Assembly: GCF_015160855.1 (NCBI RefSeq)
Contig: NZ_CP063373.1
Coordinates: forward strand, 248,001-312,000
Direction: 5' to 3'
DNA from: Streptomyces ferrugineus
GTDB taxonomy: Bacteria; Actinomycetota; Actinomycetes; Streptomycetales; Streptomycetaceae
DNA: 64,000 nt
Shown piece after piece: positions 50,737-50,909 of the stretch. The position numbers and the translations under genes were made by a program. The notes under the pieces are model-generated. The model searched no databases. It saw only the letters and a program-made list of their open reading frames with translations, and was not told the origin of the DNA. Position 1 is the first letter of the stretch, and every line of letters begins with the position of its first letter.

Positions 50737-50789
50737 CGCGGGAGCTCGGAGCACCGGGCTGAGAGGGCGCTGACCTCCGTCCCAGCGAT

Positions 50790-50803
50790 GTTTCACATGA
50801 AAC
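50790..50803. other. parS-like site 15 (one mismatch), in the riboswitch arm
   Basis: GTTTCACATGAAAC, same central change as site 3. Confidence 0.6.
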
Positions 50804-50822
50804 ATCACCCATCTCGAGTGAT

Positions 50823-50836
50823 GTTTCACACGAAAC
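50823..50836. other. parS-like site 16 (one mismatch), in the riboswitch arm
   Basis: GTTTCACACGAAAC, CACACG at the centre. AACATCAC next to site 15 pairs with GTGATGTT next to site 16. Confidence 0.55.
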
Positions 50837-50909
50837 GTCGGCAGACGGATACGGCTGCGTCGACCGCCGAACCTGTTACCGGGTAATGCCGGCGTAGGGA
50901 GTAGGTCTT

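Follow-up and report, generated by a model that had tools for sequence, protein, structure and literature searches.

A putative parS site in the variable arm of the thiC TPP riboswitch of Streptomyces ferrugineus, a probable dual DNA and RNA element

The window studied here, a 64,000-bp stretch of Streptomyces ferrugineus DNA (contig NZ_CP063373.1, positions 248,001 to 312,000) whose closest named relatives were Streptomyces, carries parA, parB, thiC and a series of parS-like sites (Table 1). The leader of thiC presented a TPP riboswitch: the RF00059 model matched over its full length at E 4.6e-06 in a 401-base search, with an 86-base insert in the alignment, and the thiC ORF starts downstream at 50910. 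The score of 38 bits was lower than the Rfam gathering score of 54.3, a shortfall that we attribute to the insert, and standard annotation would therefore miss the element in the S. ferrugineus genome. The whole-genome search returned only 24.6 bits, for part of the riboswitch. No promoter or terminator was found in a scan of positions 50600-50960. Elsewhere in the window lies the Streptomyces RNA Scr3920 (RF02828; 44023-44148, 147 bits).

The insert corresponds to an enlarged P3 arm of 104 nt; arms in the Streptomyces compared ranged from 25 to 105 nt. A mismatch scan of the window with GTTTCACGTGAAAC, which we take to be the parS consensus and which was the most frequent form in this genome, located two copies in the arm, GTTTCACATGAAAC with one mismatch and GTTTCACACGAAAC with two. 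The preliminary description had reported them as two imperfect parS copies linked by inverted pairing arms and had proposed that the whole arm can fold as RNA; the 14-mers and the pairing arms were both found in place, and the predicted fold of the arm was a single hairpin (z -5.0, 0/200 shuffles equally stable). The whole thiC leader gave a z of -3.0, with 2/200 shuffles equally stable. Copy 1 together with its flanks is itself a palindrome, and self-folding is also possible.

Table 1 Features of the window and the evidence for each.
Feature	Position	Strand	Evidence
parA	1618..2895	+	AAA_31/CbiA; named from its position before parB
parB, product expected to read parS sites	2892..3986	+	HTH_ParB, ParB_N, ParB_C
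parS 16552-16565, central in an extended inverted repeat of 16 bp; preceding gene ends at 16490	16536..16581		97% of 160 flank cells paired, 16 genomes
parS 35698-35711, inverted repeat centre, between convergent genes 48 bp apart	35692..35717		88% of 130 flank cells paired, 13 genomes
TPP riboswitch aptamer of thiC (RF00059), core flanking the enlarged P3 arm	50728..50917	+	cmscan 38 bits, E 4.6e-06, model 1-105
Enlarged P3 arm	50767..50870	+	bounded by conserved blocks GGGCTGAGAGG and ACCTG
Outer arm stem, 50776-50781 with 50844-50849	50776..50849	+	98.3% of cells paired, 39 distinct arms
Middle helix of long hairpin, 50786-50794 with 50832-50840	50786..50840	+	fold; 98.3% of cells paired
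parS copy 1, GTTTCACATGAAAC, putative ParB site	50790..50803	+	1 mismatch; within 1 mismatch in 86/87 clade members
Inner helix, 50798-50808 with 50818-50828	50798..50828	+	93.5% paired
parS-like copy 2, GTTTCACACGAAAC, putative RNA partner of copy 1	50823..50836	+	2 mismatches; at least 2 mismatches in 58/67 two-copy arms, pairing kept
thiC, gene 3' of the switch	50910..52712	+	ThiC_Rad_SAM PF01964, E 4e-188

The window contained 20 matches within three mismatches of parS, against 1.14 expected from shuffles. Over the whole chromosome, 24 sites lay within one mismatch (18 perfect and six with one mismatch), all of them at 142-330 kb of the contig, the region that also holds parA and parB; copy 1 belongs to this set and copy 2, with its two mismatches, falls outside it. 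Eleven of the 17 other window sites within one mismatch had such a site no more than 80 bases from the orthologous place in all ten clade relatives. From the gene order, the cluster is presumably proximal to oriC. In a linear Streptomyces chromosome the parS cluster is expected near the middle; here it sits off-middle in a single 9.96-Mb contig, and the record may be rotated or circularised. Paired parS sites were frequent, with start-to-start distances of 18-42 bp (16510/16552, 23508/23526, 30101/30120, 50790/50823 and 61133/61171), and the 33-bp spacing in the thiC arm is within this habit. The sequence of copy 1 occurred also inside the parB ORF (3066-3079), where ten clade relatives had a perfect site (five), a one-mismatch site (two) or none found (three). 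The window site GTTCCACGTGAAAC at 42939-42952 had one mismatch in nine of ten clade relatives and two in the tenth, and its orthologue was not found in the five genomes searched outside the clade.

The distribution of the arm was examined with a conserved 5' block pattern, which gave matches in 386 of the 392 Streptomyces genomes searched. The arm sample consisted of 138 of the 386 matched genomes, those among the matches listed, and was taken without G073, G320, G364, G238 and G239 and without matches to another TPP-type block. In 78 of these arms there was a site within one mismatch of parS (71 with one mismatch and seven perfect), and the best site of the remaining 60 was at least five mismatches away. 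Carriers of an arm parS include laboratory species such as S. antibioticus and S. murinus (L161 and L167). An arm absent or unrelated in close relatives, which together with a failure of both copies to bind ParB would have spoken against the preliminary description, is thus not what the sample presents. A tree was then built from 179 thiC genes, thiC alone. Of 80 named thiC loci, 26 fitted the arm pattern and 54 lay outside it; L059 likewise deviated from the pattern. Four of the fitting loci (L183, L187, L203 and L205), which are not from Streptomycetaceae, were omitted from the tree, as were L032 and L051, which come from the genomes of L012 and L030 and represent these in the 138-arm sample. 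A site within one mismatch was present in 94 of the 179 tree arms, and none of the 179 had its best site at two or three mismatches.

One big clade (support 0.89) had an arm site within one mismatch in all of its 87 tips. A second clade (support 0.93) had one in six of seven tips, all perfect, and L107 was a lone tip with a perfect arm parS, so that the seven parS-bearing arms outside the big clade were all perfect. The other 85 of the 92 outside tips had no arm parS, which indicates that it is dispensable; species without it build the arm from other hairpins. The first copy stood at offset 23 of the arm in 85 members of the big clade and at 22 in L114, and in L149 the good site was in copy 2. 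By arm length, the clade comprised 20 one-copy, 21 short two-copy and 46 long two-copy arms, and switching between one and two copies required five changes by parsimony. A single origin of the arm parS was tried on the thiC tree and set aside, one gain needing 14 losses versus four changes by parsimony; a CCCAGCG motif before the site in four of the six second-clade arms and in many big-clade arms, together with possible transfer, nevertheless keeps a single origin conceivable. Recombination could spread arm types, and the tree is of thiC only. As to the two histories offered in the preliminary description, invasion of the arm by parS-like DNA or construction from duplicated parS, a single parS followed by tandem duplication is the likeliest order because the six second-clade arms hold one perfect parS at the same offset, although the tree leaves this order unproven.

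At the copy-1 place, members of the big clade carried GTTTCACGTGGAAC (55, including L114), GTTTCACATGAAAC (23), GTTTCACGGGAAAC (five), GTTCCACGTGAAAC (two), the perfect sequence (one) or a decayed one (L149). Changes per column were counted by parsimony on 86 tips, with L114 omitted for its one-base shift. The columns of copy 1 changed 1.71 times on average, and only its positions 8, 9 and 11 changed more than once (7, 4 and 10 changes). Columns 14-18 preceding the copy changed 12, 18, 16, 20 and 0 times, columns 37-41 following it 10-23 times, and thiC third positions a mean of 8.17 times (median 5). The motif GCGAT just before copy 1 (columns 18-22; 0, 1, 2, 1 and 1 changes) was as slow as copy 1 itself; the kept block thus exceeds parS on its 5' side, which counts against a simple parS-only reading. 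In 300 selection-free simulations run at the average thiC rate, the site survived in 23.6 of 87 tips on average and in 61 at most, versus the 87 observed. The maximum was 79 at a quarter of that rate, and at a tenth 87 of 87 was also reached, which counts against the argument for selection. These results bear on the possibility that the arm holds a neutral relic, i.e., an inserted parS copy carried along without selection. Copy 2 does resemble decay (see below), but copy 1 was kept in 86 of 87 members between fast-changing columns. Simulated retention reached this level with the rate cut to a tenth but neither at the full thiC rate nor at one quarter, and we regard such a relic as very improbable.

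The substitutions in copy 1 were compared with those of parS sites elsewhere in 21 big-clade genomes, out of 26 searched. These contained 474 sites within one mismatch, 359 perfect and 115 with one mismatch, and three symmetric classes made up 109 of the 115: T4C/A11G (71), A6C/T9G (20) and C7T/G8A (18), with six others. Without the 22 thiC-arm sites the figures were 58, 18, 11 and 6 of 93, orthologues being counted per genome and thus not independent. The arm substitutions fell in the same three classes. ParB of Pseudomonas aeruginosa is described as preferring the half-sites GTTCCAC and GTTTCAC, in agreement with T4C/A11G as the commonest class (PMC10419367). In L007 and L118 copy 1 was the reverse complement of the commonest form, and in L149, with its decayed copy 1, copy 2 was GTTCCACGTGAAAC, which is the usual copy 1 read on the opposite strand, as expected of a DNA site. 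From these comparisons we conclude that copy 1 is a parS site constrained by predicted ParB binding. The accounts of S. venezuelae ParB ChIP-seq do not name thiC in the portions available of PMC4852455 and PMC12511625; the S. venezuelae arm lies outside the set identified here.

A point against this conclusion is that the best arm site was imperfect in 86 of 87 clade members, versus 359 of 474 sites perfect genome-wide in the 21 genomes. In a two-rate model with L149 coded as missing, the perfect state was left about 31 times faster than it was entered (with a likelihood ratio of 28.4 over an equal-rates model). The selection against perfect sites at which this model hints was not retained, a one-parameter direct-switching model fitting nearly equally (-58.1 versus -57.5). 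The rarity of perfect sites in the clade (1/87) fits a weakened functional site, and recombination of arm types could also yield it. The same data bear on a regulatory reading, by which ParB loaded in the leader would impede RNA polymerase or change how the RNA folds and so tie thiamine synthesis to segregation through a one-mismatch site of moderate strength. P. aeruginosa ParB is described as repressing the neighbours of the intergenic sites parS3 and parS4 (PMC5521831), and both the constancy of exactly one mismatch in the best site of 86 of 87 members and the two-rate result would suit such a role. The near-equal fit of direct switching, however, means that recombination can explain the rare perfect sites, all seven arms with parS outside the clade carry the perfect form, and site 42939 likewise stays at one mismatch in nine of ten relatives; regulation of thiC by ParB at the arm is therefore, in our judgement, unlikely.

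Copy 2 presented a different record. In the 67 two-copy arms its mismatches, taken at the best register within a few bases, were one in nine arms, two in 14, three in 15, four in 19, five in eight and seven in two, whereas copy 1 of the same arms had one mismatch in 65, none in one and four in one. Pairing nonetheless persisted: across the 39 distinct arms of 104 bases, 96.3% of the 1014 cells of the long hairpin were paired, and pairing fell to 29-45% with shifted partners. Cells changed on both sides numbered 22 against a shuffled mean of 10.5, and the covariation score was 0.148 against 0.121 (each 0/500 as high, in shuffles that ignore relatedness); two of the five measures, the number of both-side-changed pairs and of pair types, were unexceptional (178/500 and 180/500). 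Compensatory pairs of the inner helix included alignment columns 34-60 (AU 22, GC 9, GU 7, other 1) and 38-56 (AU 21, GU 9, GC 8, other 1). The alternative of two small hairpins, one per copy, was 96.5% paired with no compensatory cell and a score reached by 419/500 shuffles. The covariation analysis of Streptomyces thiC leaders suggested in the preliminary description thus came out in favour of one long hairpin. One-copy arms were 99.2% paired over 240 cells, with zero covariation, and their hairpin loop itself lies within the kept sequence.

The strand of selection was apparent in the wobble pairs: G.U cells exceeded A.C cells by 81 to 8, 19 to 0 and 46 to 2 in the sets A1, A2 and A3 (146 to 10 in total), 30 of the 81 in A1 belonging to one pair and the A3 fold being predicted from its own alignment. 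Such an excess is expected under selection on the thiC-sense RNA, unlike on a DNA cruciform. The T4C change in copy 1 of L007 and L118 pairs with a G opposite in copy 2 (columns 27-67). We conclude that copy 2 probably serves as the RNA pairing partner of copy 1 and that its parS identity has mostly drifted. The preliminary description had traced the central substitutions to release from ParB binding or to selection on RNA structure. The two copies differ here: copy 1 does not look released, its changes matching those of parS sites elsewhere, and copy 2 has mostly lost parS and kept pairing.

The strong pairing and covariation of the long hairpin, the sense-strand G.U bias and the conserved GCGAT outside parS could also be explained if the arm were kept only as an RNA hairpin or RNA-binding signal, its likeness to parS being a relic that ParB does not bind. 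Against this, conservation extends to the loop of the one-copy hairpin, the kept bases being nearly fixed in one-copy and two-copy arms alike, the tolerated changes equal those of other parS sites, the good site is reverse-complemented in L007, L118 and copy 2 of L149, and species without parS use other hairpins for the arm. We consider an RNA-only origin of the pattern quite unlikely.

We inspected also whether parS sites elsewhere lie at the centre of inverted repeats, in the window and the oriC-proximal stretches of 15 genomes (16 stretches in all). Among their 264 sites within one mismatch, 51 (19.3%) had at least four further complementary bases per side, versus 0.7% of 32,000 random places. 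Thirteen window sites were then compared with their orthologues over ten flank positions each, taking the nearest candidate and dealing the right flanks among genomes, a procedure that ignores relatedness. Site 16552 was 97% paired versus 86% when dealt, with 15 both-side changed cells versus 3.6, and site 35698 was 88% paired versus 59%, with 38 such cells versus 13.9 (0/500 dealings as high for either). Sites 16510 (73% versus 58%) and 61133 (54% versus 43%) exceeded all 500 dealings at lower pairing; 7086 and 61171 were weak (24/500 and 5/500 on pairing), and 1951, 4978, 23508, 30101, 39593, 42939 and 58146 gave no pairing signal in this comparison with 500 dealings. With two clear and two partial cases, inverted repeats that change around a constant central parS thus occur outside thiC too, yet at a minority of sites, and there is perhaps a general pattern of parS-capped hairpins. 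At 61118-61151, inverted half-site repeats (GGGGTGTTTCACG and CGTGAAACACCCC) around a full parS form an extra hairpin.

Taken together, the two sequences and the way they are retained, the narrow range of substitutions, the covariation, the surplus of G.U cells on the sense strand and the comparable repeats at other loci lead us to favour, as the likely explanation, a dual-coded element, in which copy 1 would be a working parS in the DNA and the same stretch an extended P3 arm in the RNA. ParB would read copy 1 in the duplex among some two dozen loading points of the oriC-proximal cluster, ~47 kb from parB, and the same bases in the mRNA would lengthen P3 away from the TPP-binding core of a presumably active riboswitch. 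A parS palindrome placed at the tip of a hairpin may be cheap for the RNA, since it simply adds stem, and the variable arm may tolerate parS because parS is a palindrome; the arm of a riboswitch would be a permissive place for such a site. A single parS tip would have come first and been duplicated later, the two copies then pairing into one longer arm, with copy 1 staying under ParB constraint and copy 2 mainly under a pairing constraint. A wider proposal, which we hold to be rather unlikely, is that hairpins capped by parS recur in Streptomyces as a dual DNA/RNA element, with ParB sites capping structured RNAs such as the riboswitch arm and gene-end hairpins, and that the moderate thiC site lets ParB complexes alter thiC transcription or folding, one sequence being common to the segregation machinery and a metabolite switch. 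In S. venezuelae, early sporulation is described as a stage with large ParB complexes (PMC4852455).

Taken singly, the parS site and the TPP riboswitch each belong to a well-known class of element. Copy 1 resembles the chromosomal parS sites of the Streptomyces oriC-proximal cluster in having no more than one mismatch, in its place in the same cluster, in its kinds of substitution and in the parAB genes of the window. It differs from them as a predicted ParB site within a structured leader RNA, seemingly read as RNA too, with a second copy mostly decayed but paired. The thiC leader has the conserved core blocks, the variable P3 and the position before thiC of RF00059 riboswitches, whereas its arm consists of parS-like sequence and its score misses the Rfam gathering score. 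Sites 16552 and 35698, as the fixed centres of compensating repeats, are similar to terminator-like inverted repeats at gene ends; unlike the thiC arm, their stems lie outside any metabolite-binding RNA. Among the matches listed in the open-access literature we found no account of parS inside a riboswitch or at the tip of a hairpin. PMC8743542 refers to a supplement with putative parS sites of 20 closed genomes, which may well include the present positions.

The thiC arm would be a natural case where one set of bases apparently encodes both a riboswitch arm and a DNA site of centromere type, and the evolutionary evidence separates two constraints, that of copy 1 on DNA and that of copy 2 on RNA. 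It suggests that non-coding hairpin tips are harmless places for bacteria to add parS, offers a testable locus for effects of ParB on host genes, and illustrates that large arms can push riboswitches under standard covariance thresholds. Two further observations concern parS numbers and positions in other genomes. In L022 and L110, whose arms have no parS, perfect sites were located about 540 and 650 bases upstream of the arm, and the second-clade genomes G111, G158, G312 and G405, with a perfect arm parS, carried 28-40 perfect parS sites versus 14-22 in the 21 big-clade genomes.
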